From a virus: 40,657 bases of DNA. Shown here in pieces: positions 6,574 through 38,408 of this stretch. The notes beneath the pieces are model-generated. The model did no database searches and had not been told where the DNA came from. It was given only the letters and a program-made list of their open reading frames with translations. The position numbers and the translations under genes were made by a program. The stretch is taken from positions 1 through 40,657 of the IMG/VR virus record IMGVR_UViG_3300046535_000659; one strand, 5' to 3'. Each line of letters begins with the position of its first letter. The first letter of the stretch is position 1.

Positions 6574-6609
6574 GCCGTCGTCATCCTTTGGGGTGGCGGC
6601 GGCCTTTTT
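6574..6609 (+). terminator. Strong rho-independent terminator
   Basis: Thirteen consecutive pairs (6574-6586 with 6591-6603, including several G-U) close a TTTG loop and are followed by C and five T (6605-6609). It ends the rightward transcript of 4196-6461. The leftward operon also ends here; its last stop codon overlaps the T-run. Confidence 0.7.
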
Positions 6610-6869
6610 CATTTGTAGCCAATGGAAACGGTCAGGGTGATAGGTTCACCTACTGCTTTGATGCAAGCCGCAGCATTCCCTGGAATCGTCATTTTCTGCC
6701 CGTCCACCAGCACACTGCAACGGGCATATTCATGGTACTCCGAAATCCGCTCTTTCATGGTTTCATAAGCCGCCGTTGTAACGAAGATCGTCCCGCATAT
6801 GACGCCGCTAATAAATACCGCTGCGGTCCTCATTCGAAGCGGCTCCGCGCCTGGGCGTGGCTCGCTCAT
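6609..6869 (-). CDS. Small membrane-anchored protein (86 aa)
   Basis: Start 6869 lies in an ATGA overlap with the upstream gene; an internal ATG at 6833 would remove 12 polar residues. Residues 14-34 (RTAAVFISGVICGTIFVTTAA) form a membrane anchor; the rest is polar and contains two Cys. It is the last gene of the leftward operon. Function unknown. Confidence 0.6.
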   Translation of the reverse strand: MSEPRPGAEPLRMRTAAVFISGVICGTIFVTTAAYETMKERISEYHEYARCSVLVDGQKMTIPGNAAACIKAVGEPITLTVSIGYK

Positions 6870-6878
6870 CTCTCGCTC
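6859..6878 (-). repeat. 20-bp repeated translation start region, copy 1
   Basis: The 20 bases covering ribosome site, ATG and codons 2-4 of the gene ending at 6609 are identical to those at 7095-7114 for the preceding gene. Both give the N-terminus MSEP. Confidence 0.7.
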
Positions 6879-7105
6879 GCCGGGACCAGCCCGGCCCTAG
6901 AGCACCATACCGCCACAGCTTCCTCAAGCGCTGCCTTGGCGGTAGGGAGAGTGGAGACGAATCTTGTCAGATCAGCGTTGAGATAGCACACGACGCCCCA
7001 GTGGCCCGGATTATACCACCACACTTTTCCTGCTGGAATTTCTCCCAACATTGCTATTGCTTCTCGCTCGCCTTCCTCGCGCCAGGTGATCATGGGCTCG
7101 CTCAT
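6866..7105 (-). CDS. Hypothetical protein (79 aa)
   Basis: ATG 7105 was preferred because it forms an ATGA overlap with the upstream gene and is preceded by GAGAG. The protein begins MSEP, as does the next gene, because a 20-bp segment covering ribosome site and start is duplicated. Middle region KVWWYNPGHWGVVCYL is rich in aromatic residues. No domain recognised. Confidence 0.6.
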   Translation of the reverse strand: MSEPMITWREEGEREAIAMLGEIPAGKVWWYNPGHWGVVCYLNADLTRFVSTLPTAKAALEEAVAVWCSRAGLVPASER

Positions 7106-7114
7106 CTCTCGCTC
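7095..7114 (-). repeat. 20-bp repeated translation start region, copy 2
   Basis: Identical 20-mer to 6859-6878, again placed over the ribosome site and start codon. Supports the ATG at 7105 as the real start of that gene. Confidence 0.7.
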
Positions 7115-7320
7115 CTGATACGGGTGGACCACCATTGCCGGAACTCAGCCATGCAGGAGGGGCAAATGTCGGCCGCGTTCATGCCGACGGGGAACGTCAT
7201 CTCGTCCAACACCCCTTCGACCTGCACGTTGGCCCATGCCCATCGGCCAGGACAAGCACGGTTGTCTCGGCCACAGCGGTCGCAGGTTAACGTGGTGATT
7301 GTCGTGGTTTCGCGCGTCAT
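7102..7320 (-). CDS. Zinc-ribbon-like hypothetical protein (72 aa)
   Basis: Two Cys pairs, CDRC (13-16) and CPSC (54-57), frame an acidic/hydrophobic core, the pattern of a small zinc ribbon. Such proteins can bind DNA or partner proteins. It overlaps the next gene by four bases. No named family recognised. Confidence 0.6.
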   Translation of the reverse strand: MTRETTTITTLTCDRCGRDNRACPGRWAWANVQVEGVLDEMTFPVGMNAADICPSCMAEFRQWWSTRIRSER

Positions 7321-7330
7321 GCGCTGGCCT

Positions 7331-7681
7331 TCATAGGTTCCACCAACGACCTGGCGGCCGCCCCATTATAGGATATGGCTCCCAATAGGGTAGCTCGACG
7401 CCTTGGTCTGTTTCACGTGAAACAGGCAGGCGGTCTTGCCGTTTGCCTACCGGCTTCTCAGGCGGAAGGGGCGCAGGCATGGGCCGAGCTGCAAACCGTG
7501 GGGGCGGCACAAAGCGCACGATCTCCCGCGCGGCCCGGGAGTGGATCGAGACGCAGCGGCCCCCGCGTAGAAGGTGGATCTCGCCGGGCCAACAGTGCAG
7601 GCGATGCATGTAACGGTGATAGCGGGCCTCGGCGGGAGCGGCCACGAGGACGAGGAGAGCGGCGGCGGATACGAGTCTCAC
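7331..7681 (-). CDS. Exported hypothetical protein (116 aa) containing parS
   Basis: A signal peptide is clear (MRLVSAAALLVLVAAPAEA, cleavage expected near residue 19), so the mature protein should reach the periplasm. It is rich in Arg, Pro and Trp with two Cys (HCWPGE and GRCVSIHS). The start overlaps the upstream gene stop by four bases. Codons for PVSRET near residue 87 spell the exact 16-bp parS palindrome, so the site sits in coding sequence. Confidence 0.6.
   Translation of the reverse strand: MRLVSAAALLVLVAAPAEARYHRYMHRLHCWPGEIHLLRGGRCVSIHSRAAREIVRFVPPPRFAARPMPAPLPPEKPVGKRQDRLPVSRETDQGVELPYWEPYPIMGRPPGRWWNL
7409..7424. promoter_or_regulatory. Exact parS partition site
   Basis: TGTTTCACGTGAAACA is a perfect 16-bp palindrome identical to the chromosomal parS bound by ParB in most bacteria, including Caulobacter and rhizobia. 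The match extends one more base pair each side (C...G). I saw only one exact copy and no parA or parB in the window, so it would have to be read by host ParB or by a phage gene outside the window. Confidence 0.75.
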
Positions 7682-8004
7682 GCGATCGGCTCCCGCTTTG
7701 GGATGAGCCGCAGCGCAGATTCAGCAAGACGCAACGCCCTGATGTGATCCGGACTGATCTCGTTGAGCGACCACCCGTTCCTCTCGACCTGCATGGCCCA
7801 AGCGCGGTGCAGGAAGGAGTGAATTTCCAGATCTGTAGAGTCATCCGATGCCGTTTCCTTGCCCTTGGTAATGGCTTGGAGAGCAGCTAGCTCGGCTTGC
7901 GTGGGGCGGCCATTCGATGTGGATTGCGTAGAGGCATTCTGCGCAATGTCACGGACCTGATTTTCGACGTCGTTGAGGATAGTCGAGATAACGTCGGTAG
8001 CCAT
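7678..8004 (-). CDS. Hypothetical protein (108 aa)
   Basis: A good ribosome site (gggagaag) precedes ATG 8004. The N-terminal half is helical and polar (TDVISTILNDVENQVRDIAQ), the C-terminal part contains DHIRALRLAESALRLIPK. No domain recognised. Coupled by ATGA to the exported protein downstream. The 97 bases from 8005 to 8101 upstream hold no convincing gene. Confidence 0.65.
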   Translation of the reverse strand: MATDVISTILNDVENQVRDIAQNASTQSTSNGRPTQAELAALQAITKGKETASDDSTDLEIHSFLHRAWAMQVERNGWSLNEISPDHIRALRLAESALRLIPKREPIA

Positions 8005-8101
8005 TGCACTTCTCCCTTTGCGGTGTGTAAAATAGTGGTGACATAGGGCGGTGTTCGCCGGGACCAGCGCTTTATCCGCTCAAGCCAACTGGCGGGTCTC
8101 G

Positions 8102-8464
8102 TCATGCGTCGCCTCCCTCTGCCTTACGGGCCTTGAGCTTGGCGAGGAGAGCGTCGGCGCGATGGACACTATCCATATCCCGCTCGAAATCAGTCGTATA
8201 TTCGCCGAGCACCGTCTCGCACTCCGCGAGCAGCGCTTCAGCGGCAACGAGCGCTCGAATACGTTGGAGCACATTTATCGATTGCGTGGGCGCGCCTTCG
8301 ACCATACCGCCCGCCGCATGCACTATGGCGGCCAAGCGCCCATGAAGTGGCTTGATGTGCTCCGCGATGATGCGGTCGGCAAGTTCAGACATGGTGCGAT
8401 CCGGGTCGCAGTCCCATTCGTCGATCGTGTCGAACACGGCCTCCCACTCTGTGGGGGTGGTCAT
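8102..8464 (-). CDS. Hypothetical helical protein (120 aa)
   Basis: Mostly alpha-helical in composition; C-terminal residues 78-117 are charged and suggest a coiled coil (RADALLAKLKARKAEGG). No family recognised. Both ends overlap neighbours in the leftward operon (ATGA at 8461-8464). Confidence 0.6.
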   Translation of the reverse strand: MTTPTEWEAVFDTIDEWDCDPDRTMSELADRIIAEHIKPLHGRLAAIVHAAGGMVEGAPTQSINVLQRIRALVAAEALLAECETVLGEYTTDFERDMDSVHRADALLAKLKARKAEGGDA

Positions 8465-8943
8465 AGCTGCGGCCCTCTGATCAGGGCAATAATGGCGTCG
8501 ATACGCTTATCCTCGGGCCGAGAAGGATGCTTGCGGAAATCGTCTATGATTGATCTTGCCTGCTCCCTCGTCACCGCCCCGCGCTCGACCGTCCCGAATA
8601 GGGAGGCGGCGGTCAAGGCGGCTTCGGCGCTCTTGACCCAAGTCCGCCAAGCATAGTGCAACTCAATTTTCTGAGGACCAGCCCCTAAGCGAGAGTCATA
8701 TTTGTGTATACTGTCAATCGGGTATTCGCCATAGAAATGTTGTAATAGCGTCATGGGATCTCTATCGCGCGAGGCGCATATTGCCTTTGCGGCCGCCTCC
8801 ACTGCGCTCTCCGCGCTCTGTGCCGCGAGCACGAGGCGGGCGGCGTCAACGACCAGTTGATTAGCGAATGACGCCTCCATGTGGCCATAGTCGCCAGTCT
8901 TCCAGCCATGGATAGCTGCGCGAAGCTTGTCGTTGTCGGTCAT
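8461..8943 (-). CDS. Hypothetical protein (160 aa)
   Basis: Alanine-rich helical region at residues 33-58 (ARLVLAAQSAESAVEAAAKA), then a more globular part with HFYGEYPIDS. The pattern of an AAKAIC helix followed by a WRTWVKSAEAAL helix is common in small phage proteins of unknown role. Coupled to both neighbours by four-base overlaps. Confidence 0.65.
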   Translation of the reverse strand: MTDNDKLRAAIHGWKTGDYGHMEASFANQLVVDAARLVLAAQSAESAVEAAAKAICASRDRDPMTLLQHFYGEYPIDSIHKYDSRLGAGPQKIELHYAWRTWVKSAEAALTAASLFGTVERGAVTREQARSIIDDFRKHPSRPEDKRIDAIIALIRGPQL

Positions 8944-9320
8944 ATTTCCCTCGCGTAAAGTTGTCTTGGCGGCAGCGCTTGCTTAGGCTCACGCTTGCTG
9001 CGGTCTATGGCGCGTTGAGTGCGGGCAAAGCCGGGCGAGCGGATGGGGGCTGAAGGTGTATGCGCATTGATGCTGCCGGCGTGCTGCCTCTTCATCTTGG
9101 TGATGCGTGGGATACTCTGTTCCTTCGTCACCACCTTGTGGCAGGGGATGCAAAGCACCTGACAGTTCGCCAGCGCATTGTCGCCGCCGAGCCGAGCTTC
9201 CAGGATGTGGTGGTATTGAGGCCCGCCGTCCCGCAGCTCGACATCGCAAGCTTGGCAGCGCCCCTTGGCGCGCTCGTAGGCTTTGCGCTTCGTCGGGGCG
9301 CTGAATTCGAGCCGGGTCAT
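8940..9320 (-). CDS. HNH endonuclease (126 aa)
   Basis: A classical HNH nuclease: C-x2-C (CQAC, 22-25), YHHILEARLGGDN (about 36-48) with the catalytic His, then NCQVLCIPCHK with the second Cys pair and final His. These enzymes nick DNA using one divalent metal. Here it sits between the recombination genes and hypotheticals, so it could serve recombination, host DNA cleavage or homing. The basic C-terminal tail is likely DNA-binding. Confidence 0.85.
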   Translation of the reverse strand: MTRLEFSAPTKRKAYERAKGRCQACDVELRDGGPQYHHILEARLGGDNALANCQVLCIPCHKVVTKEQSIPRITKMKRQHAGSINAHTPSAPIRSPGFARTQRAIDRSKREPKQALPPRQLYAREI

Positions 9321-9508
9321 ATGAGCCTCTCGGCGCCCTCGGCTTGCGCCTTTGCGCGATAGTCGTCGGCGATTGCTCGCATCGTCTCGATCTCATGCTC
9401 GGCCTGCTGCGGCTTCATTTTGCCGGCAGCGATCCAGCGTGGATAGACGCGCTCGCGCATTCGCAATTCACGCTCAGCGCACTTAGCCTTGTCCTCGGAC
9501 GTGATCAT
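9317..9508 (-). CDS. Small conserved phage protein (63 aa)
   Basis: A charged helical protein whose core RVYPRWIAAGKMKPQQAEHE is a pattern I recognise from many phage recombination clusters, function unknown. It overlaps the HNH gene downstream (ATGA) and the NinB stop upstream by one base. Confidence 0.65.
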   Translation of the reverse strand: MITSEDKAKCAERELRMRERVYPRWIAAGKMKPQQAEHEIETMRAIADDYRAKAQAEGAERLI

Positions 9509-9906
9509 TAGGCGGCCTCTCTCGCATCGTCGGCGAAGTCAACGCCGTTCTGGGCGCCCCAGGAATAAAGCAATTCGATCATGTTCGACATCTCCTCTAT
9601 GCCAAGGTCAGACGAGCTTTGACCGATAGGCAGGAAGCCAGTTCCATCGAGCGATGGCACAAAGCGCGTCTCACGGCCCAGAGCGTGCAAGAAAATCACC
9701 TTCCAGTCTCCGGGCGAGTAGCGCTGACCATGATGCTCTTTCTGGACGCTGATATGCGTCAGCAGCACCCACATAAGCGCGTTTTGCGGTAGTGTGCGCT
9801 TGGATGCCTTGTATTCAATTCTTGTCCCATCAGGAGCGCGTCGCACCCAAGCGATGGCACGCTCCCGATCGGCCGGACGGTGGATGACGATTAACGCCCT
9901 GCCCAT
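9508..9906 (-). CDS. ninB: NinB/Orf-type recombination protein
   Basis: The 132-residue protein has the NinB signature: LPQNALMW (about residues 39-46) followed by SPGDWKVIFLHAL, a RFVPSLDGTGF turn and the helix NMIELLYSWGAQNGV. In phage lambda this protein (Orf) binds single-stranded DNA and SSB and substitutes for host RecFOR in loading recombinase. Its place beside ERF supports a role in phage homologous recombination. Full-length for the family. Confidence 0.85.
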   Translation of the reverse strand: MGRALIVIHRPADRERAIAWVRRAPDGTRIEYKASKRTLPQNALMWVLLTHISVQKEHHGQRYSPGDWKVIFLHALGRETRFVPSLDGTGFLPIGQSSSDLGIEEMSNMIELLYSWGAQNGVDFADDAREAA

Positions 9907-10109
9907 GCCGGGGCCTCAACGGGGCGCTCGTCCTTCGGCTTGGCCTGGAGCGAGATCCACTTCCCCTTAGCGCCTTCCTTCGTCCAGCCCGAAAGCCAGT
10001 AGGCTCGACCATCAATCATGATGGAACCTTGAAGATTCGGGTGCGTGTCCTTCTCGCGCTTCTCGTTTTTGAAGAGCGAGCCTTGGCCTTCCTTGAGTTC
10101 GTAAGCCAT
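9891..10109 (-). CDS. Small conserved phage protein (72 aa) next to ERF
   Basis: The pattern GSLFKNEKREKDTHPNLQGS, then AYWLSGWTKEG and KWISLQAKP is typical of small phage proteins distantly like DUF736, often found beside single-strand annealing genes. It abuts the ERF stop at 10110 and overlaps NinB by 16 bases. Possibly a DNA-associated accessory protein; not proven. Confidence 0.7.
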   Translation of the reverse strand: MAYELKEGQGSLFKNEKREKDTHPNLQGSIMIDGRAYWLSGWTKEGAKGKWISLQAKPKDERPVEAPAWAGR

Positions 10110-10772
10110 CTAACCAGCCCTCATAACTTCTGCGGCATCGGCCGCCTTCGCGATCTCGCCAAGCTCTTCGTAAATCGCGTCGAGCTCGTCGCACTGTTCG
10201 CCGGTTAGCGTTCCCCACCATGTGCCAAGAGCCTGCGCCCCCTCTTTCGCTATGCCCCTGGCTTTGGTGCGGAGAGCCGCCACGGGATCAGCCTTAACTG
10301 CGGTGAGTGCAGGCTTGGCGACCTTGGGCGGCGGGGCCTGACGCGCTGGCCATTCGCTGCGGTCCTGCTGAACGGGCGTCTCTCCCGCGTTGGCGTCGTC
10401 ATCGTCGTCCGAGGAGGCAACGGCGGCGATGGCCATGAGGGCATAACGTTTGGCGTAGGTGATCACGGCACCAATGCCCTGCGGCGTGAACTGCGGGACG
10501 GGCATGCGCAGGATGTCGCTGATATATTGGCCGCTCTCTCCATGGGCGAGGAATGTCTCTACCTCGATAAAGCCTTCCCCGGTTCGGGGGAACTGCGTAA
10601 CGGCAAGACCATTCTCTGAGAACGGCTTGCGAACGGCCTGGCGCACGGCTGCGAGCGTCGCGTAGCGAGACTTAAAGTGCGGATTGCGGCTATCCTTGCC
10701 CGCGTCCTCCATTTGGCCCTGCGCTTTGGCAAGGGCCGTCATGAGGGCGCCGATCTCTTCTGTCATGCGCAT
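10110..10772 (-). CDS. erf: ERF-family single-strand annealing protein
   Basis: The 220-residue protein carries the ERF core: NPHFKSRYATLAAV, then ENGLAVTQFP, DILRMPVPQFTPQGIGAVITYAKRYAL-like segment ending with acidic SSDDDDDANAG, matching the P22 Erf group. ERF rings anneal complementary single strands for recombination and circularisation of linear genomes. After residue about 120 comes a Pro/Lys-rich linker and a small C-terminal helical domain. The ATG 10772 is preferred; ATG 10766 two codons later is an alternative. Confidence 0.9.
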   Translation of the reverse strand: MRMTEEIGALMTALAKAQGQMEDAGKDSRNPHFKSRYATLAAVRQAVRKPFSENGLAVTQFPRTGEGFIEVETFLAHGESGQYISDILRMPVPQFTPQGIGAVITYAKRYALMAIAAVASSDDDDDANAGETPVQQDRSEWPARQAPPPKVAKPALTAVKADPVAALRTKARGIAKEGAQALGTWWGTLTGEQCDELDAIYEELGEIAKAADAAEVMRAG

Positions 10773-10774
10773 GG

Positions 10775-11512
10775 CTAAATCTTTCGTTCGATGTGAATGG
10801 AGATGCCTTTGGGCAGTCGCCCGTGAGCCTTGCGGTAATCGCGCGCCGCACTGCGGATCGCGTCGCCGATCTTGTCGGATGGCCACATGCTGATGACGGC
10901 CGATATGTGGTTGTCGATGACGAGCGTCTCGACGGTTCGCATAGCTACGGCACGGCCGTAGCCGGTTGCGATCCGCTCCGGCACGTCCTTCTCTGCGATG
11001 GCGAGTGCCCTGGCAGCTCGCGCCGCATCTTCCTGGGCAATCGCCGTATCGGTTATGGCTTGCACGACCGGCCCGCCGATCTCGCCTAGAGCCGCGTTCT
11101 CAATGGCGTCGCGCTCGGCCTCCGCGGCCCTCAGGGCGGCGATCTCCGCTTCCTGCGCCGCACGTAGCTTGGCGGCGACATCGGCCTGCCTGCGGGCCTC
11201 CTCGGCCCGCGCACGGTCGGTTAAGCGTGACTTGAGCAAGACAAGGAGCCGATCGAGCGGAAGGCTGGCGCGCTTGTAAGCGGCGTTGATTGCCTTCACG
11301 CGTTCGTTGAGCGGCCTAACATTGCCGTCTCTCTCGTCGTCGAGTTCGTCGGCTGCGATCCTGCCGCGTTTGATGAGTTCCGCAGCGCGCTTGGCTTCCT
11401 CGTGTGAGCCGATGACCGGCGTCTCGCTCAAGAAGCGCGACAGCTCCTCGACGACGCCATCGATTAGCTCGATCTGGCTGGGTGGATGGTTATGCCCCGC
11501 AACCGCGCTCAT
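10775..11512 (-). CDS. Ala/Glu-rich coiled-coil protein beside ERF (245 aa)
   Basis: ATG 11512 is chosen for its ATGA overlap and GAGAG site. The N-terminus holds GHNHPPSQIELIDGVV, the centre (about residues 85-160) is a long Ala/Arg/Glu coiled coil, and the C-terminus is globular with RTVETLVIDNHISAVI. I know proteins of this layout from phage recombination clusters; they lack a named function. Likely a structural or exonuclease-accessory partner of ERF. Confidence 0.7.
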   Translation of the reverse strand: MSAVAGHNHPPSQIELIDGVVEELSRFLSETPVIGSHEEAKRAAELIKRGRIAADELDDERDGNVRPLNERVKAINAAYKRASLPLDRLLVLLKSRLTDRARAEEARRQADVAAKLRAAQEAEIAALRAAEAERDAIENAALGEIGGPVVQAITDTAIAQEDAARAARALAIAEKDVPERIATGYGRAVAMRTVETLVIDNHISAVISMWPSDKIGDAIRSAARDYRKAHGRLPKGISIHIERKI

Positions 11513-11745
11513 CTTGAACTCTCTTCCGAATGACCGAGCATGGACATGCCGCGATCTGGCGAGCACATGCCTATATTGAATTCGGTCTGGTTCGCGTGTT
11601 GACCCAGTTCGATCGTGTGCCAGCGAGGATCATCGCCGCTGGACTCCTGCCATTTTGAACCCCATGCTCCGGCCTCATCCATCGTCTTGAAAGGACCGAC
11701 GAGCCATAGGGCGTGCGTTTGCCAGATCACCACTTGAATGCTCAT
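11509..11745 (-). CDS. Hypothetical protein (78 aa)
   Basis: Small globular-looking protein beginning MSIQVVIWQTHALWLVGPFK, with four Trp and an acidic centre (ESSGDDPRW). No family recognised. Overlaps both neighbours by four bases in the leftward operon. Confidence 0.6.
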   Translation of the reverse strand: MSIQVVIWQTHALWLVGPFKTMDEAGAWGSKWQESSGDDPRWHTIELGQHANQTEFNIGMCSPDRGMSMLGHSEESSR

Positions 11746-11930
11746 GCTGCCCTCTTCAAGAACCGGGCGCCCCGGTTGTTCATGCGCACGTTCCTGGCGA
11801 GGAGGACCGAGCGCACTTGGCTGTGCGAGATACCCAACTCGTCGGCAAGACTGCGTAGGCTTCTTGTGCGCGTCCTGTATTGCTTGCAGATGTATGTGTT
11901 CCGCTGCACGAGCGGGTTTACTTTTCTCAT
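11742..11930 (-). CDS. Small helix-turn-helix DNA-binding protein (62 aa)
   Basis: Residues 27-48 (SLADELGISHSQVRSVLLAR) form a clear helix-turn-helix, with strongly basic flanks. AGGAG precedes the start. The protein is small enough to be a dimeric regulator of this operon or a nucleoid-like factor. The long structured leader upstream (11959-12020) suggests its expression is set separately from the genes before it. Confidence 0.65.
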   Translation of the reverse strand: MRKVNPLVQRNTYICKQYRTRTRSLRSLADELGISHSQVRSVLLARNVRMNNRGARFLKRAA

Positions 11931-11958
11931 ATCATGTCACTCCTGGGAAGGGGGGGAA

Positions 11959-12020
11959 GGCGCAGCCGGTTGGTAGCCCGCGGAACCGGCCGCGCCCTTG
12001 CAGACTTCAGTGCCTGCAAG
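11959..12020 (-). promoter_or_regulatory. Two strong hairpins in an internal operon leader
   Basis: A 13-bp stem with one mismatch (11959-11971 with 11984-11996) and a 7-bp stem (CTTGCAG 11997-12003 with CTGCAAG 12014-12020) lie back to back. On the minus strand they precede a poly-C/T stretch and the AGGAG of the 11930 start. They may act as attenuator, processing site or internal terminator; no U-run follows, so termination is not assured. Confidence 0.4.
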
Positions 12021-12024
12021 CTCG

Positions 12025-12399
12025 TCAATGAAATGACAGCCGCCGGCTGTGGCAGATTGGGGGGGCAAAGCTGCCTGGGCCGGCGGCCTCGGAGCGAACA
12101 GGGGCTCCGATCTCGTAATGGGGTGCGCCCGAGCTTGGTGTGTCAAGGGGCTCGGACGCGGCACCGGCAGGCGGTCGCTGCCTGCCGATCTGTGAATTGG
12201 GATAGGCTCGTCGTCTCGCCGCCTCGAAATTGGCCGCCATCCTCAGAACATGCGGTATCGTGTTATATCTAGCGCAGACAAGGTCTATGTTGACTGAGCC
12301 GAGATGATGTATCCGGCAGAGGTCGGCGTGGCTGAATTCGCGCAGATGGTGCTGCGCAATTGCCGATGCCTCCTCATCCTCGTCGAACCAGCGGCTCAT
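12025..12399 (-). CDS. Hypothetical protein (124 aa)
   Basis: ATG 12399 follows AAGGAG. The first 70 residues look folded (DEDEEASAIAQHHLREF, SHADLCRIHHLGSV) and contain several His and Cys; the rest is Pro/Ser/Gly-rich and probably disordered. A run of seven C on the coding strand near 12058-12064 makes the last part sensitive to a sequencing or slippage frameshift. No domain recognised. Confidence 0.55.
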   Translation of the reverse strand: MSRWFDEDEEASAIAQHHLREFSHADLCRIHHLGSVNIDLVCARYNTIPHVLRMAANFEAARRRAYPNSQIGRQRPPAGAASEPLDTPSSGAPHYEIGAPVRSEAAGPGSFAPPICHSRRLSFH

Positions 12400-12401
12400 G
12401 A

Positions 12402-12554
12402 TTACTCCTTGCTCCAACTATTAGCGATGATGACAAGAACGAACCCGGCCCCTATAATGCCAAACGGCCATCCAGCCACATAGCTTATGCCTATCAGCAC
12501 CATCGCAACGCCGCCAAAGCCGACCACGGCTGTTGCCAATTCGCGGTCCCTCAT
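12402..12554 (-). CDS. Small membrane protein with two helices (50 aa)
   Basis: ATG 12554 overlaps the upstream stop by four bases; the longer upstream frame would run through the neighbour and is rejected. Two hydrophobic segments, AVVGFGGVAMVLIGISYVAG and FGIIGAGFVLVIIA, are joined by a WP turn. Likely an inner-membrane hairpin protein of unknown role. Confidence 0.6.
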   Translation of the reverse strand: MRDRELATAVVGFGGVAMVLIGISYVAGWPFGIIGAGFVLVIIANSWSKE

Positions 12555-12748
12555 GCGATCTCTGCCAATGCGATGCGGCGCTTCTCTTGCCGCCTCCACC
12601 GTGAGATGATGCGGAAAGCACGCCCGCTCAACGCGACAGGCTGATCCCGCAAGTAGCGGCGGGCGAGGCGCTTGTGGCCCTCGTAGATGCCCTGGGCCGT
12701 GCTGCGCTCGATCTCGTCGAAAACGCGCTGCATCAGAGGAGATGTCAT
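12551..12748 (-). CDS. Basic hypothetical protein (65 aa)
   Basis: Arg-rich (pI clearly high), with RVFDEIERSTAQGIYEGHKR and a C-terminal RWRRQEKRRIALAEIA helix. Could bind nucleic acid; no helix-turn-helix seen. Coupled by ATGA overlaps at both ends. Confidence 0.55.
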   Translation of the reverse strand: MTSPLMQRVFDEIERSTAQGIYEGHKRLARRYLRDQPVALSGRAFRIISRWRRQEKRRIALAEIA

Positions 12749-12963
12749 GACTTCCCTCCACGAGATTTGAGAAACTCGTTGAAATCAGACTCAAATTGCG
12801 TTTGTTTGTTCATTCTCGTATGAGCGGCAAAGTCACTTCGCAGCTCTTTCATATATTTCTCAAATTCAGGGTTCTCACTCGTGCTGTCGCTTTCGCCAAT
12901 CATAGCGACGGCGCTAATCAAAACGACTGCGGAGCATGCCGCCCCCGCGATAAATTCGATCAT
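12745..12963 (-). CDS. Single-pass membrane protein (72 aa)
   Basis: ATG 12963 lies in an ATGA overlap. Residues 2-22 are a membrane anchor (IEFIAGAACSAVVLISAVAM) and the remainder a charged helix (EFEKYMKELRSDFAAH). This resembles small phage membrane proteins with a cytoplasmic or periplasmic coiled tail; function unknown. Confidence 0.6.
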   Translation of the reverse strand: MIEFIAGAACSAVVLISAVAMIGESDSTSENPEFEKYMKELRSDFAAHTRMNKQTQFESDFNEFLKSRGGKS

Positions 12964-13217
12964 GACTTGTCTCCGAGCGAGCGATGGTGCGCGGCTTCTA
13001 AATATCGGGTGGCTTTGTGCAGCGCACGCGTTCGCTTTGCTTCCCATTCGCGCAACTTGACGGCGCGGATCTCGCTGTATCCAGGGATCGCGACAATGAC
13101 GCAGTCGTCAATCATCTCTTCGGTCAAGTCGCCATGGTCGTGATAGACCTTGATGGATCGCAGCACGTCATGCATCTCGGCAAAAGCGTCGATCTCAAGC
13201 TCATTAATGCTTTTCAT
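12960..13217 (-). CDS. Hypothetical protein (85 aa)
   Basis: Acidic N-terminal half (DLTEEMIDDCVIVAIPGYSE) and basic C-terminal half (WEAKRTRALHKATRYLEAAH). No family recognised. Coupled to both neighbours. Confidence 0.6.
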   Translation of the reverse strand: MKSINELEIDAFAEMHDVLRSIKVYHDHGDLTEEMIDDCVIVAIPGYSEIRAVKLREWEAKRTRALHKATRYLEAAHHRSLGDKS

Positions 13218-13552
13218 GGCTTCTTCCTCGATACAACAAGACCGTGTTTGTCGAGCGCTGAGCGAAGGGCATCATCCGATACGCCATCGCAGTCAGTCGC
13301 GTCTGAGAAAGCGCACTGGAGATCCCAGATAAGATCGTGCTCTTCCTCGCGCGTCTCGAGGTCGGCGATCAGTGCATCGCGCTCGTCACACAGGCCATGA
13401 AGCTCAGCACGCTTCTCGCCCAAAAGGCCATTACGGAGGAACTGAAACCGGAAGCTGTTGATCCGAAACTCCGCATGCTCGATCTTGCGGTCGAGTTCCT
13501 GCACGCTTGCGCGGAGCGAGGCGAGAAGCTGGCTTCGGACTAGCGTGCTCAT
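13214..13552 (-). CDS. Coiled-coil hypothetical protein (112 aa)
   Basis: ATG 13552 forms an ATGA overlap. Residues 5-70 are rich in Leu, Arg and Glu with heptad spacing (ASVQELDRKIEHAEFRINSF, DERDALIADLETREEEHDL), a likely coiled coil; the C-terminus is short and globular (DGVSDDALRSALDKHGLVV). Function unknown. Confidence 0.6.
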   Translation of the reverse strand: MSTLVRSQLLASLRASVQELDRKIEHAEFRINSFRFQFLRNGLLGEKRAELHGLCDERDALIADLETREEEHDLIWDLQCAFSDATDCDGVSDDALRSALDKHGLVVSRKKP

Positions 13553-13749
13553 ATCTGGTCCTTCGACTGGCGTTGTGCCTCGTGTTTGGCGGGCTCGGAT
13601 GCGGCTCGTGCGCAGTGAGGGCAAACAGAGGACGCCTTGACTGCCGCCGCTGCATCGTGGGCAGCCATGCCAAGCTCGACATCCGTGAGGTCGTTGCGTA
13701 GATAGGGGAGCAGCGCTCGCCCGACCGCGATGATCTGTTCTTGCGTCAT
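13549..13749 (-). CDS. Hypothetical protein with a single CxxC (66 aa)
   Basis: The ATG at 13749 directly follows the upstream stop; a GTG at 13767 is an alternative. Contains ALLPYLRNDLTDVELGMAAH and a C-terminal CPHC pair. Too short for a full zinc ribbon on its own. Function unknown. Confidence 0.55.
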   Translation of the reverse strand: MTQEQIIAVGRALLPYLRNDLTDVELGMAAHDAAAAVKASSVCPHCARAASEPAKHEAQRQSKDQI

Positions 13750-14139: not shown

Positions 14140-14168
14140 TTGACGTCCCGTTGCGCAATATGTAACTG
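14140..14168 (+). promoter_or_regulatory. Rightward promoter for the repressor gene
   Basis: TTGACG (14140-14145) is the -35; possible -10 elements are TGTAAC (14161-14166, short spacer) or TAACTG (14163-14168, 17-base spacer). The palindrome TTGCGCAA (14151-14158) lies between. With the second choice, transcription would begin at about the A of ATG 14176. The -10 is weak, as expected for a controlled maintenance promoter. Confidence 0.4.
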
Positions 14169-14175
14169 TCGGAAT

Positions 14176-14403
14176 ATGGAACATCCGCTGCGCCGTTATC
14201 GCAAGGTCCAGGGCCTCTCACTCGGGGAACTGGCACAGCGATTGAACGTCAGCGTCGCCACGATCTCCCGCCTCGAAACCGGTAAACAGGGCGCTTCGTT
14301 GGCCCTGGCGGTCGCCATAGAACGCGAAACCGGTGTTCCGGCACATAAATTCGTGATAAAAAAATCCGTGGATTACGCGGAGGGAAGGCTGGCGGAAGCA
14401 TGA
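14176..14403 (+). CDS. XRE/Cro-CI family repressor (75 aa)
   Basis: Residues 8-60 are a textbook HTH_3 domain: LRRYRKVQGLSLGELAQRL, then VSVATISRLETGKQGAS, ending with ALAVAIERETGVPA. The protein lacks the RecA-sensitive protease domain of lambda CI and is of Cro or short-repressor size. It stands divergent from the leftward early operon over shared control DNA, so it most likely sets the lysis/lysogeny or early/late decision. ATG 14176 has only a weak GGA upstream. Confidence 0.85.
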   Translation: MEHPLRRYRKVQGLSLGELAQRLNVSVATISRLETGKQGASLALAVAIERETGVPAHKFVIKKSVDYAEGRLAEA

Positions 14404-14809: not shown

Positions 14810-15033
14810 CAAAGCCGAAAGCGCTTTCGGCTTACCAAGCCAACCGGGCCGGCGACTGCATGACCCGGTATTGGGACCATGTGCAGATGATGGTCCACGC
14901 GTCAGCGGAAGACCTCATCCGAGTCTACGGGCCGAATTGCTTTAAGCCCTTCGACCTGCACATCCCGCCCGATTACATTGTCTTCATGAAGGGCGGCCCC
15001 AATCCTTTCATTCACACCCCGGTGTCGCCATGA
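14806..15033 (+). CDS. Hypothetical protein (75 aa)
   Basis: Mixed composition, with KPFDLHIPPDYIVFMKGGPN in the C-terminal half. No domain recognised. ATGA overlaps couple it to both neighbours. Confidence 0.6.
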   Translation: MTKPKALSAYQANRAGDCMTRYWDHVQMMVHASAEDLIRVYGPNCFKPFDLHIPPDYIVFMKGGPNPFIHTPVSP

Positions 15034-16075: not shown

Positions 16076-16437
16076 TGGCTCGCGCGCAACCCGAGGCGGC
16101 TATCCAGCGCTCCGTGCTGGAATACCTTGCGAGTGTCGCCCCTCAGCTCGTCGTCTACGCCAATCCGAATGCGTCGAGGCGCACTGCCTCGGGCCGAGCA
16201 TCCAATGCCGTCCCTGGGCTGCGCAAGGGCGTCCATGACCTCACCATCCTCTCCCATAGGCGTGTCCATTACGTCGAGGTCAAGGCACCGAAGGGCAAGA
16301 TGACGCCCGAGCAATGCGAGTTCGCCGATGCGCTCGATCGGCTGTCCATCTCTTGGTGGGTGGTCCGGTCTATCGACGACATGCGTGAGGCTCTGAAATG
16401 GTGGGGCCTCGAAACACGGGAACGGGCGGCCTCATGA
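16075..16437 (+). CDS. VRR-NUC domain nuclease (120 aa)
   Basis: ATG 16075 overlaps the upstream stop. The protein has the compact VRR-NUC fold signature: EAAIQRSVLEYLA, then GLRKGVHDLTIL with the catalytic Asp, VHYVEVKAPKGKMTPEQ with E-x-K, and a final SWWVVRSIDDM helix. Stand-alone VRR-NUC proteins in phages cut branched DNA, acting as Holliday-junction-type nucleases. It would serve recombination or packaging here. Confidence 0.8.
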   Translation: MARAQPEAAIQRSVLEYLASVAPQLVVYANPNASRRTASGRASNAVPGLRKGVHDLTILSHRRVHYVEVKAPKGKMTPEQCEFADALDRLSISWWVVRSIDDMREALKWWGLETRERAAS

Positions 16438-16994
16438 ACAATTTCAAAGCCGCCGAATGGTCGCAGGAGCGTATCAAGATGCTCACGGATCTATGCGCCG
16501 AGGGGCTGTCCTCGGGCGAGATCGCCTCTCGGCTCGGCGTCACTCGTAACAGTGTCATCGGGCAGTCCTCGCGCCGTGGCCTGACGCTGTCCTTCACGCG
16601 AGGGTCGAAGCCTAAAGCACCCCCGGCTGAGCCACGGCAATCTCGCACAATCGCGCCGAGCGAACCTCGCACAATCGCGCACGTTATTGCTCCAACTGCG
16701 CATATTAATCATGCAACGATTACCGCAGTTAGCGTTAATGATTATCTAGCGACAAGCCGCCCATGCACGCTAATGCAGCTCTCCGCTACGCGCTGCCGCT
16801 GGCCCTATGGCGATCCTAAGAAGCCCGGCTTCCACTATTGCGGCGGCGCGAAGGAGCCGGAGCGTTCCTATTGCCCCACGCACATCAAATTAGCTCATCG
16901 TGAGCCCCTGCCATACCTGCAGCACGGGCCGACGACACGCACGCCGCCTCACATGCCTGGCACATCGCGAATTCTCGAAAGCGAGGACGCATGA
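16434..16994 (+). CDS. gcrA: GcrA-family cell-cycle transcription regulator homologue
   Basis: The 186-residue protein shows both conserved ends of alphaproteobacterial GcrA: an N-terminal helix-turn-helix (residues 9-50, WSQERIKML to VTRNSVIGQSSRRGL) that reads DNA, and the C-terminal Cys/His region (111-155: CTLMQLSATRCRWP, GDPKKPGFHYCGG, SYCPTHIKLAH) that binds sigma70. In Caulobacter GcrA promotes open complex formation at promoters with methylated GANTC. A phage copy could redirect host RNA polymerase. It overlaps the nuclease upstream and the methyltransferase downstream by four bases each, so it is translated together with a DNA methyltransferase. Confidence 0.9.
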   Translation: MNNFKAAEWSQERIKMLTDLCAEGLSSGEIASRLGVTRNSVIGQSSRRGLTLSFTRGSKPKAPPAEPRQSRTIAPSEPRTIAHVIAPTAHINHATITAVSVNDYLATSRPCTLMQLSATRCRWPYGDPKKPGFHYCGGAKEPERSYCPTHIKLAHREPLPYLQHGPTTRTPPHMPGTSRILESEDA

Positions 16995-17671
16995 GCCATC
17001 GGGTCGAGCATTTGGCCGAAGGCGTGACGCTTTATCTCGGCGATTGCCGCGACGTGCTGCCCATGCTCGACAAGGTCGATGCAGTCGTGACCGATCCGCC
17101 TTATGGTCTTGGCGCATTGTGGGGTGTCGGTGGCGATGGTGCGTGGCCTCTTAGAGATAGAGATATGAAAGACGGCGCTTGGGACATGGCAACCTGCGAA
17201 GACGCGCTGCGTCAAGCCATGGCTCTAGTGCCAGCGTCAATCGTGTGGGGCGGAAACTACTATGAACTGCCTCCTTCTCGGGCTTGGTTGCTTTGGGACA
17301 AAATGCAGGAACACTCGACAGCCCATGCCGAAATGGCCTGGACTAATTTGGATTTTCCAGTACGCATCTTTCGATATGCCCGCGCGCAGCTCGCCAGCGA
17401 GGGCAAGGAGCACCCGACACAGAAGCCGCTGCCTCTGATAAAGTGGTGCATTGAGAAGCTTCCCGCTTCATTCCGCACCATCCTCGACCCCTTCATGGGC
17501 TCCGGCACCACCGGCGTTGCCGCCGTCAAGCTTGGCCGCCGCTTCATCGGAATTGAGATCGAGCCCAAGTATTTCGACATCGCCTGCCGGCGCATATCGG
17601 ATGCCTTGGCGCGCCCCGATCTGTTCATCGAGCCTCCCGCACCCAAGCCCAAGCAGGAGGCATTTCTATGA
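16991..17671 (+). CDS. Beta-class DNA methyltransferase (adenine-N6 or cytosine-N4)
   Basis: The motif order is DPPY (35-38, catalytic) first and DPFMGSGTTG (about 166, AdoMet site) later, which marks the beta class that includes CcrM. LYLGDCRDVLP precedes the catalytic motif and GIEIEPKYFDIA follows the AdoMet site. At 226 residues it lacks the extra C-terminal domain of CcrM. The specificity cannot be read from sequence; translational coupling to a GcrA homologue makes GANTC a tempting guess. It could equally protect phage DNA against restriction. Confidence 0.9.
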   Translation: MSHRVEHLAEGVTLYLGDCRDVLPMLDKVDAVVTDPPYGLGALWGVGGDGAWPLRDRDMKDGAWDMATCEDALRQAMALVPASIVWGGNYYELPPSRAWLLWDKMQEHSTAHAEMAWTNLDFPVRIFRYARAQLASEGKEHPTQKPLPLIKWCIEKLPASFRTILDPFMGSGTTGVAAVKLGRRFIGIEIEPKYFDIACRRISDALARPDLFIEPPAPKPKQEAFL

Positions 17672-20938: not shown

Positions 20939-22273
20939 ATGGCAGCAACCCAGCGAATAACGCTGCCCTATGCGCCCCGTCGTGTCTTCATGCCGTACCA
21001 CCAGCGCAAGCAACGGTGGGCCTGCATTGTGGCTCACAGGCGATGCGGCAAGACAGTCGCCTGCATCAACGACATCATCAAGGCCGCGGCACTTCTCAAG
21101 ATCCCCCACGGCAGATTCGCCTATGTCGCCCCGTACCTAAGCCAGGCTAAGGAAGTGGCATGGGAGTATCTTAAGAGATATTCAGCACCGATCATCACGG
21201 ACAAGAATGAAGGGGAGTTGTGGGTTGAGCTCATCGGCGGATCACGCATCAGGCTCCACGGGGCAGACAACCCCGACAGACTCCGAGGCAACTACCTTGA
21301 TGGAGCGGTACTCGACGAGTTCGGTGATATGCGACCCTCCATATGGGGGGAAGTTATTCGACCAATGTTGGCAGATCGTCTCGGGTGGGTCACGTTCATC
21401 GGCACGCCCAAAGGTCGCAACGAGTTCAGCGCCATTTACGAACGCTCCAAAACTATCGAAGGGTGGTTCTCTGCGATGTTACGGGCCTCGGAAACGGGCA
21501 TCCTCGATGAAGCCGAGCTGATATCCGCCCGGCAGGACATGACGCCGGAGCAATACGAGCAGGAGTTCGAGTGCAGCTTCGACGCGGCCATCCTCGGCGC
21601 CTACTACGGCAAGGAGATCGCCGAGGCCGCCCGCGCTGGGCGCATCACCGAGGTTCCATACGAGCCTGCCCTGCCTGTCCATACATCGTGGGATCTGGGC
21701 ATCGGCGACTCGACGGCGATCTGGTTCTGGCAGGTGAGCGGCGGCGAGATCCGCGTGATAGACCACTACGAGAACAATGGGCAGGGATTAGCGCATTATG
21801 CTAAGGTCATTGCAGCGAAAGGTATCGCGCTTGGAGAAGGACGCACTGGTCGAGATTACGTCCCCCACGATGCCCGCGTTAGAGAGCTGGGAACAGGCCG
21901 AACGCGAGTTGAAACTCTTGGAGAGCTTGGGCTATCTCCCGCATTGGTTCCCGACCACAAGCTTATGGACGGTGTTAATGCACTTCGCCTCACCATCCCC
22001 AAGTGCTGGTTCGACAAGACTAAGTGCGCAGAGGGTCTCGAGGCGCTCCGGCAATACCGCGCCGACTTCGACGAGAAGCTGAAGACCTTCAAGGACGCAC
22101 CGCGGCACGACTGGACGAGTCACAGTGCTGACGCCTTCCGGTACATGGCCATGGCGTATCGTGAGATCGAGGCGCCTGTGGTTAAGCCGCCGCCCCGGTT
22201 CATCGAGGACGTGACCCTCGACGAGTTGTGGGATATGCAGGAAGCAATCCCGAAGCACGCGAGGCGCATATGA
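20939..22273 (+). CDS. terL: Terminase large subunit
   Basis: The 444-residue protein has an N-terminal packaging ATPase and C-terminal RNase H-like nuclease. AHRRCGKT (32-39) is the Walker A loop, VLDEFGDM (about 123-130) Walker B with the catalytic Glu, and FIGTPKGRN (about 152) the coupling motif. The nuclease starts at SWDLGIGDSTAIWF (about 250, first metal Asp) and ends at SHSADAFRYM (about 393-402, last metal Asp). It drives DNA into proheads through the portal at 25323 and cuts the concatemer. Full-length, no sign of damage. Confidence 0.95.
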   Translation: MAATQRITLPYAPRRVFMPYHQRKQRWACIVAHRRCGKTVACINDIIKAAALLKIPHGRFAYVAPYLSQAKEVAWEYLKRYSAPIITDKNEGELWVELIGGSRIRLHGADNPDRLRGNYLDGAVLDEFGDMRPSIWGEVIRPMLADRLGWVTFIGTPKGRNEFSAIYERSKTIEGWFSAMLRASETGILDEAELISARQDMTPEQYEQEFECSFDAAILGAYYGKEIAEAARAGRITEVPYEPALPVHTSWDLGIGDSTAIWFWQVSGGEIRVIDHYENNGQGLAHYAKVIAAKGIALGEGRTGRDYVPHDARVRELGTGRTRVETLGELGLSPALVPDHKLMDGVNALRLTIPKCWFDKTKCAEGLEALRQYRADFDEKLKTFKDAPRHDWTSHSADAFRYMAMAYREIEAPVVKPPPRFIEDVTLDELWDMQEAIPKHARRI

Positions 22274-29243: not shown

Positions 29244-29870
29244 ATGATCCCGACGGGCTATCGCGACGCAGATGGGCTGCTCTGGCCCGCAGATGATGTC
29301 GAATGCCTGCGCGCCGCGCGAGCGCAGGTCGCCGACCTTGAGCAGGTCTATCCCTACTGCAAGGGGTTTAGAGTCGCGGTGCAGGCGGGCGGGAATTGCG
29401 GCGTCTGGCCGGCGGCTCTGATCAAGCGCTTTGAGACGGTCTACACGTTCGAGCCTGATCCGACCAACTTTCGCTGCCTTTGCGTGAATGCACCGCATGA
29501 AAATGTGTACAAGTTCAACGCCGCGCTCGGCCAGTTTCACGAGACGATCGAGCTGAGCCGGAAGGCTGATAATGCCGGGGCGCATTATGTTAGCGGGGCA
29601 GGCGCGATCCCCACCCTGCGCATAGACGACCTGGCACTGAAGGCCTGCGATCTCATCTGCCTCGACATCGAGGGCCGGGAGTATGCTGCCATCATGGGCG
29701 CCATGGGCACGATCCAGACCCATAAGCCGGTCATCGTGCTCGAGGATAAGGGCTTGAGCGCGAAATACGGCATCGCAAAGGGCTATGTTAGGGATGTGAT
29801 CGTTGGGCTTGGCTACCGGGTTGAGGGTCGATTGCGCCGCGATATCATCTTCGCGCCGACCGGAGGTTGA
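29244..29870 (+). CDS. FkbM-family methyltransferase (208 aa)
   Basis: AdoMet-binding pattern VQAGGNCGVWP (about residues 50-60), YTFEPDPTNFRCL (about 69-81) and CLDIEGREYAAIM (about 138-150, IEG motif) is that of FkbM-like O-methyltransferases. These commonly methylate sugars or glycolipid and peptide groups. It sits between structural genes rather than with a biosynthetic cluster, suggesting modification of a virion component or surface glycan. No good ribosome site is seen before ATG 29244. Confidence 0.8.
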   Translation: MIPTGYRDADGLLWPADDVECLRAARAQVADLEQVYPYCKGFRVAVQAGGNCGVWPAALIKRFETVYTFEPDPTNFRCLCVNAPHENVYKFNAALGQFHETIELSRKADNAGAHYVSGAGAIPTLRIDDLALKACDLICLDIEGREYAAIMGAMGTIQTHKPVIVLEDKGLSAKYGIAKGYVRDVIVGLGYRVEGRLRRDIIFAPTGG

Positions 29871-36350: not shown

Positions 36351-38408
36351 ATGGACCTTGCTGAACAGAACTACCCCGAGCCGCGGCGCTATCGCGTGGT
36401 GACGGCGTTCAATGACGAGGGTTTCGAGCTCTACGGCAAGCGGATGGTCGAGGGCTATCTGCGCTACTGGCCGAAGAGCGTTCCGCTCATCGTCTATCCG
36501 CAGGGATTAAGGGATACGGATCTCGACTGGCTCGATGATCAAGGCGTGGAGCTTCGGGATCTCCCGGATTGGTGGGGGGCTTTCATCGCGCGCCATGATG
36601 ATAACCCGCTAGCCAAGGGCAACTTGCCGACACATTACGATTTCCGCTGTAACGCAGTGAAGTGGGCATGCAAGCCGGCGGCAATCGCGGATGCTCTTGA
36701 GCGGCTGATCGATGGCGTTCTGATCTGGATTGATGCCGATACGGTGATGCGTAAGCCCATCACCGAGGAATGGCTCGACGGGCTGTTTCCCAACCCCGAC
36801 AACGGCATGGCGTGGCTAGATCGGGAAGCCAAGGTGCAAGAGGGCAGCTTCTTGATGTTCCGGGTCGCGTTCTCGGAGGCCCATAGCATCGTCGGCGAGT
36901 TCCGGCGCCTCTACGAGACCGACGAGGTGTTCCAACTCAAATACACCGCAGACAATTACGTACTACAGCATGTGGTCGACAAGATGGGCCTGACGCCCGT
37001 CTCGCTCTCGGGTTCCGGGCGCCACAACAACGAGCCTTTCAATGAGGGGCCGTTGGGCGACCGCATCCTCCACCTCAAGGGGCCTATGGCGAAATATCGG
37101 TCTGCCCCGCGCATCTCGGACGCGTACCGGGAGATGCAGGTCAAAATGCATGCCGAGCAGCCGCTCTACGGGACGTATGGGCGGCGGTTCGCGCGGCAGC
37201 TAGAGGATATCGCCATCGAGCACCGATGCGCCTCCTTGCTCGATTACGGGGCAGGGAAGGGCACTCTGAAGCAGGCGCTCAAAGACTCGAGTTGCCGGCA
37301 GCTAACCGACATCAGGGAATATGACCCCGCGGTGTCGGGCATTGACGGCGAGCCGGAGCCCGCCGACCTCGTTGTCTGCGGCGATGTCCTCGAGCATGTC
37401 GAGGCCGACAAGATCGCCGCCGTCCTTGAGCATATCCGCCGGCTGACGCTGCGTGTCGGGTTCCTCGTCATCCACACGCAGGAATCGACCAAGCAGATGC
37501 CGACCGGCGAGAATGCGCATATCCTGATGCGCGATCCCGACTGGTGGGCGATCACACTCAGTCATTATTTCGAACTGCGCAAGTTCGATGTCGGCGTACG
37601 CGAGATCTCGGTCATCGTCTCGCCGAAGCTCTACGAGCCGAATGTCATTACCTTTGCTGCCCTCGACGACGGCATCAGGCTGCGCCAGGCTCGCGCGAAT
37701 ATGCGGCGCGTGCCGACGAGGCTTGAGGAGGCCCCGCCGCACGATCGGACTGCGGTCATCGTCTGTTATGGGCCGTCGCTCCGATATACCTGGCCGCTGG
37801 TCAGCCGATCCGGCGACAAGGCAGACGTGTTCTCGGTATCGGGCGCGCACAAGTTTCTGATCGACCATGGCGTTATCCCGCACATCCATATCGATTGCGA
37901 TCCGCGCGAGCATAAGGCGAAGCAGTTCGGCGAGCCGCATCCGCAGGTCCAGTACTGGCTCGCCTCTTGTGTGCATCCTGCCTATCTCGATCGGCTAGAG
38001 GGTCGCGCCGTCGCCCTCTGGCATTTGTGGAACGGCGACGAAACGAAGGGGCTGTTCGACGAGCTCGAGCCGGGCGAGTGGCTTGTGCAGGGCGGGGGGA
38101 GCGTCGGGCTGCGGGCAATGCCGCTGCTCTATGCGATGGGATACCGCGACTTCGAGATCCACGGCATGGATTGCTCCTATGCCGGGGGTGAGAAATACGC
38201 CGGGCAGCATTTCGGCAAGGCCCATCACGACCTCAGGATCAGATGCGGCGACCGCTGGTTCGATACCGGCGCGAGCATGGTCGCCTATGCGCAGCAATTC
38301 TTCATCACCCGCGCTGTGATGCATGACGCGACCGTTCGCCTGCATGGCGATGGGCTGCTTCAGCATATGGTGAGAATGCAGGGGGAAGGCGACGCGGGCC
38401 GGGCTTGA
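36351..38408 (+). CDS. Three-domain glycan enzyme: glycosyltransferase, methyltransferase, DUF115
   Basis: Residues 15-275 are a glycosyltransferase-like domain with WIDADTV (about 126-132). Residues 285-440 are an AdoMet methyltransferase: LLDYGAGKGTLKQAL (about 291-305) and DLVVCGDVLEHVEADK (about 338-353). Residues 465-670 match the DUF115/Maf or MptE-like fold: AVIVCYGPSLRYTWPLVSR, FSVSGAHKFLIDHGVIPHIH, LVQGGGSVGLRAMPLLYAMG. DUF115 proteins include flagellin glycosyltransferases. One 685-residue polypeptide could thus add and methylate a sugar. Such fusions occur in some phages; the target here is unknown. It is the second gene of the cassette. Confidence 0.75.
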   Translation: MDLAEQNYPEPRRYRVVTAFNDEGFELYGKRMVEGYLRYWPKSVPLIVYPQGLRDTDLDWLDDQGVELRDLPDWWGAFIARHDDNPLAKGNLPTHYDFRCNAVKWACKPAAIADALERLIDGVLIWIDADTVMRKPITEEWLDGLFPNPDNGMAWLDREAKVQEGSFLMFRVAFSEAHSIVGEFRRLYETDEVFQLKYTADNYVLQHVVDKMGLTPVSLSGSGRHNNEPFNEGPLGDRILHLKGPMAKYRSAPRISDAYREMQVKMHAEQPLYGTYGRRFARQLEDIAIEHRCASLLDYGAGKGTLKQALKDSSCRQLTDIREYDPAVSGIDGEPEPADLVVCGDVLEHVEADKIAAVLEHIRRLTLRVGFLVIHTQESTKQMPTGENAHILMRDPDWWAITLSHYFELRKFDVGVREISVIVSPKLYEPNVITFAALDDGIRLRQARANMRRVPTRLEEAPPHDRTAVIVCYGPSLRYTWPLVSRSGDKADVFSVSGAHKFLIDHGVIPHIHIDCDPREHKAKQFGEPHPQVQYWLASCVHPAYLDRLEGRAVALWHLWNGDETKGLFDELEPGEWLVQGGGSVGLRAMPLLYAMGYRDFEIHGMDCSYAGGEKYAGQHFGKAHHDLRIRCGDRWFDTGASMVAYAQQFFITRAVMHDATVRLHGDGLLQHMVRMQGEGDAGRA

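Follow-up and report, generated by a model that had tools for sequence, protein, structure and literature searches.

The DNA analysed here, referred to as the window, is the whole of a 40,657-base IMG/VR virus record. It was found to be a phage contig carrying a terminase and structural genes common to other phages, together with genes for an ERF recombinase, NinB, an HNH protein, an exonuclease and an HTH regulator (Table 1). An exact chromosomal-type parS site lies in a small ORF within a packed run of early genes. The GTG start of this ORF overlaps the stop of the upstream ORF by 4 bp (GTGA), and the N-terminus of the 116-aa product resembles a signal peptide by inspection. Searches of viral contigs, cultured phages and 397 genomes gave no relatives of the protein. 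A lone weak genome match was rejected because its frame contains stops, and the 433-aa exonuclease, used as another route to relatives, gave none that could be confirmed. Among the late genes, an FkbM methyltransferase gene (29244-29870) and a gene whose 685-aa product combines a methyltransferase with an MptE-like domain (36351-38408) are possible glycan or surface modification genes.

Table 1. Features of the window bearing on the parS site
Feature	Position	Strand	Remark
Exact chromosomal-type parS TGTTTCACGTGAAACA, perfect palindrome	7409..7424		Exact match; identical 16-mer beside parB in related Rhizobiales genomes
18-bp palindrome CTGTTTCACGTGAAACAG	7408..7425		
116-aa ORF with the site as (P86)VSRET(91) in its Pro-rich C-terminal tail	7331..7681	-	No known family
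Tightly packed early-gene run, mostly 4-bp overlaps (GTGA/ATGA), holding the gene with the site; HNH, NinB, ERF recombinase	6609..13624	-	
HTH (repressor/Cro-like) regulator, transcribed away from the minus-strand cluster	14140..14403	+	
GcrA-family cell-cycle regulator	16398..16994	+	Strong profile and structure matches
N6/N4 DNA methyltransferase, 4-bp overlap with the GcrA gene	16991..17671	+	C-terminal part resembles CcrM and DpnA
Large terminase, used as query for relatives	20939..22273	+	

A chromosomal-type parS is a 16-bp palindrome with at most one or two mismatches to the consensus, and the site in the window matches it exactly. It was the sole match to TGTTTCACGTGAAACA when up to three mismatches were allowed, with no additional parS-like copies elsewhere in the window, and shuffled sequence gave a mean of 0.03 matches at the same threshold. 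The flanking C and G lengthen it to the 18-bp palindrome. There are three perfect 16-bp palindromes in the window, parS among them; the other two are CGGTGATTAATCACCG at 650-665 and CCGAAAGCGCTTTCGG at 14815-14830, the latter just inside a small ORF of the regulator region. Within the 116-aa ORF, the 16-mer takes in the third base of Pro86 (CCT) and codons 87-91, GTT TCA CGT GAA ACA (VSRET). All five of these codons end in A or T in a window with a GC3 of 0.70, and the probability of exactly these five codons, given VSRET and the window's own codon usage, is approximately 1.2e-4. The original prediction had called the site an exact parS match within coding sequence, extended to an 18-base palindrome and far beyond chance. 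Direct matching bore out the match, the palindrome and the coding position, and the last point was upheld by the shuffles and by control palindromes that are far rarer in phages, as described below.

Several features suggest which host the phage infects. The GcrA-family gene, the adjoining methyltransferase gene, a depletion of the CcrM site GANTC across the window (63 seen compared to approximately 146 expected from base composition) and terminase relatives at 61-67% identity in Rhizobiales bins lead us to infer an alphaproteobacterial host. No full CtrA sites (TTAA-N7-TTAA) were found in the window. The GcrA-family and CcrM/DpnA-like methyltransferase genes form a phage-borne pair that could affect host cell-cycle transcription.

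Four Rhizobiales genomes with a relative of the terminase have a canonical parB. In three of them (G032, G033 and G036) the identical 16-mer was found on the parB contig within approximately 4 kb of parB, and in the fourth (G031) a one-mismatch parS lies within the same distance, also on the parB contig. The ParB of one of these genomes has the recognition helix GKSRSHVANT of Caulobacter ParB, and the parS of Hyphomonas neptunium is TGTTTCACGTGAAACA (PMC7022226). The same 16-mer thus occurs near parB in these Rhizobiales and serves as parS in H. neptunium, so that what the window contains is exactly the chromosomal site of the likely host group. The 16 bp are thus identical to those of the chromosomal ParABS systems of Alphaproteobacteria (Caulobacter, Hyphomonas, Rhizobiales), but the site in the window lies on a virus, away from oriC, parA and parB. 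Many contigs of a Defluviicoccus MAG (G035, L210/L214) bear parS-like sites, 47 in all and thus unusually numerous, which often come in pairs spaced 37 bp apart and may be a repeated element.

Profile searches of the whole window gave no match to ParB_N, ParA-type AAA_31, tyrosine integrase or serine recombinase, and all four profiles detected known genomes in the same run. This agrees with the earlier statement that neither parA/parB nor an integrase was visible, and parA and parB adjoining parS, as expected of a phage-encoded ParABS or phage-plasmid, were not found in the window. The window covers the entire record, and no terminal repeat was found in it, so this contig may be incomplete; the absence of ParB from the window is therefore not proof of its absence from the phage. 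That the site belongs to a ParABS system encoded by the phage itself, on a missing part of its genome, is nonetheless quite improbable. Besides the lack of end repeats, a ParB_N match in 4 of 40 parS-bearing viral contigs of approximately 25 kb or more speaks for such a system, but the remaining 36 contigs had none. Moreover, early, recombination, packaging and capsid genes are all present in the window, which equals its relatives in size, and its site is the exact chromosomal consensus, whereas the ParB proteins of phages and plasmids usually have distinct sites of their own. Because ParB_N is missing from most of these parS-bearing contigs, a host protein is the obvious reader. Host ParB would likely bind the site in the window.

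A scan of IMG/VR for exact parS returned at least 120 contigs. With control palindromes of the same base composition, there were no contigs for TGTCTTACGTAAGACA, one for the backwards reading and five for TTGTTCACGTGAACAA, which retains the CACGTG core, so that the controls were at least 24-fold rarer. Some viral contigs may include host DNA, a problem from which cultured phage genomes are free. With a 30-base query taken from around the site, 334 records of cultured phages were matched (270 at no less than 99% identity), compared to eight for a control query with the same flanks and the backwards palindrome. The matches include Listeria Pecentumvirus, the phi29 group, actinophages and small single-stranded DNA phages. 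Listeria Pecentumvirus and the phi29 group are usually regarded as strictly lytic. Clusters of three to five exact parS sites within approximately 1 kb were seen in three viral contigs (L063, L017 and L044), and bajarodino virus 3 (L257), an inovirus of 6183 bp, has six exact copies and no annotated ParB.

These counts bear on the idea that the site is a coincidence of chance or of protein sequence, a VSRET peptide that happens to fall on parS codons. The window offers one occurrence, and a reader who looks for many motifs would find some. The exactness of the 16-mer, the rarity of the control palindromes and the low codon probability given VSRET all oppose it, and we consider it the least probable of the explanations weighed here.

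The coding of the site across phages was used to ask whether DNA or peptide is enriched. The 146 sites compared (those of the 120 IMG/VR parS contigs and one further site from a terminase relative) comprised 61 coded as VSRET, 27 coded as FHVK, seven third-frame sites, most of them at the ends of ORFs, and 51 outside ORFs of at least 60 aa. In 80 loci that had not been picked for parS, only six VSRE peptides were found in approximately 730,000 six-frame residues, and none of the four codings listed was parS. Because the sites are spread over frames and non-ORF DNA, and because unselected VSRE codings are not parS, the enriched word is, by this tally, DNA and not peptide.

A marine phage family (L267-L346), chosen by terminase alone, provided a comparison among relatives. 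Enough upstream sequence was available in 76 contigs. Exact parS preceded terL in 48 of these, in most cases by about 110 bp, while one had a single mismatch, none had two to four and 27 had five or more. Because the terminase used as query was itself taken from a contig with parS, 48 of 76 is not an estimate for the family as a whole, and it is the gap between exact and absent that is informative. No case was obtained in these upstream regions with 200 shuffled palindromes. The flanking DNA of site-bearing members averages 64% identity; the site columns of that alignment are invariant by construction, the sequences having been picked for the exact site, and the bimodal mismatch count was used instead. 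Other diverged pairs retain the site at flank identities of 47-79%. The site is thus kept by selection across relatives in other phage families, both marine and in the diverged pairs. None of ten long marine-family records, eight of them with exact parS, had a ParB_N match. Of the cultured phages with a relative of the marine terminase, HTVC027P alone showed a one-mismatch parS, which does not lie upstream of terL. By analogy with these other phage families, the site in the window would sit where a small phage protein tolerates it and be held there by selection on the DNA.

Among relatives of the window's own terminase, 29 of 30 records had no exact or one-mismatch parS, and the remaining one has the 14-bp core in another gene, place and frame. 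These relatives share mostly structural genes and few early genes with the window, so that loss of the site among them says little. On this comparison parS is not ancestral to the wider terminase family. It was probably gained in or near this lineage, since the 116-aa gene has no relatives and only one of the 30 terminase relatives has the core.

A close known parallel is the group of Bacillus phage phi29. Exact parS was found in the endolysin linker of B103 and Chedec 11, before the C-terminal repeats, where it is coded as NVSRET, and the linker of phi29 reads NVSRGT with TGTTTCACGTGGAACA, the form taken by its four one-mismatch parS sites. The Pro-rich tail of the 116-aa ORF looks like the same kind of linker placing. 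Entrapment of the phi29 genome in the spore needs the host ParB, Spo0J, as reported by Meijer et al. 2005 (EMBO J) according to the account given in PMC9437464. The window and phi29 resemble each other in having a chromosomal-type parS but no own ParB that could be found, in the coding of the site within a protein as an (N)VSR(E/G)T linker, and in the implication of host ParB. They differ in their sites, four with one mismatch each in phi29 and a single exact one in the window, and in their hosts, which sporulate in the case of phi29 and are probably alphaproteobacteria in that of the window.

Other mobile elements offer partial likenesses. The parABS cassettes of extrachromosomal prophages, such as cluster A actinophages and P1, also place a centromere on phage DNA, but these phages encode their own ParA/ParB and use their own sites (PMC7157519, PMC11652158), and neither gene was found in the window. 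In the hijacking of the IncC parABS by SGI1, as outlined in PMC10954446, a mobile element likewise borrows the partition system of another replicon, though in that case a plasmid lends and an integrative element borrows.

Our preferred explanation, which we consider probable though well short of certain, is that the window carries an orphan parS, to which host chromosomal ParB would bind and on which it would load, so as to position or segregate intracellular phage DNA. The phage has the exact 16-mer and no detectable parA or parB. Given the sequence identity, host ParB would bind the site, close as a CTP clamp and slide onto the flanking phage DNA. ParA, and SMC, which loads at ParB-parS, could then treat the phage genome like the origin region, and phage DNA would be kept near the origin or pole and passed to daughters in a non-lytic or delayed phase. 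The phi29 precedent makes segregation or positioning of intracellular DNA the most likely benefit to the phage. The single site in the window provides no internal replication of the pattern.

The original prediction had also proposed that host ParB could load here and that the site would suit a plasmid-like prophage state. The first proposal stands in that host ParB is the best candidate reader by sequence, while its benefit in segregation is a proposed one. The plasmid-like state is possible but is neither established nor required, as orphan parS is also frequent in phages regarded as strictly lytic, such as the phi29 group and Listeria Pecentumvirus; parS without an integrase therefore does not imply a plasmid prophage.

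The main rival to segregation or positioning is a regulatory or packaging role, given that parS occurs in lytic phages and, in the marine family, upstream of terL. Host ParB would then be recruited for a regulatory or physical effect, its clamps together with SMC silencing or compacting the early region, or aiding replication or packaging. The place of the site in the early minus-strand cluster, the marine-family parS upstream of the terminase gene and the presence of parS in strictly lytic phages are all consistent with this, but a long distance separates the site in the window from the divergent regulator region at about 14 kb, and the phenotype reported for phi29, as described in PMC9437464, is entrapment of the genome in the spore. 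We regard such a role as unlikely. A different use of host ParB would be that of a decoy, in which replicating phage DNA titrates or misdirects the protein and upsets segregation of the host chromosome. Some phages do have several copies (six in the 6-kb inovirus and four in phi29), but a genome with one copy soaks up little ParB unless it is itself present in many copies, and inoviruses usually do not kill their host. We consider a decoy very improbable.

Beyond the window, we tentatively propose, with rather less confidence than for host ParB as reader of this one site, that orphan parS is widespread. Many phages, lytic ones included and mostly without ParB, would retain perfect copies of the host centromere, in many cases spelled as VSRET within disordered linkers or set just upstream of terL, and host ParB-CTP and SMC would join the ordinary phage cycle. 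The window would be an alphaproteobacterial case, in which the phage GcrA and DNA methyltransferase would belong to a broader takeover of the host cell cycle. In the literature searched, no account of orphan parS as something general among phages was found, and it appears to be little recognised so far. A phage with a synonymous parS-null change is predicted to lose ParB foci on its DNA, and ChIP-seq of host ParB in infected cells is predicted to light up phage genomes. If host ParB does load on phage DNA, the centromere machinery of the bacterium would serve the positioning, inheritance or packaging of phages, and the spore entrapment of phi29 would no longer stand apart but exemplify a general strategy.
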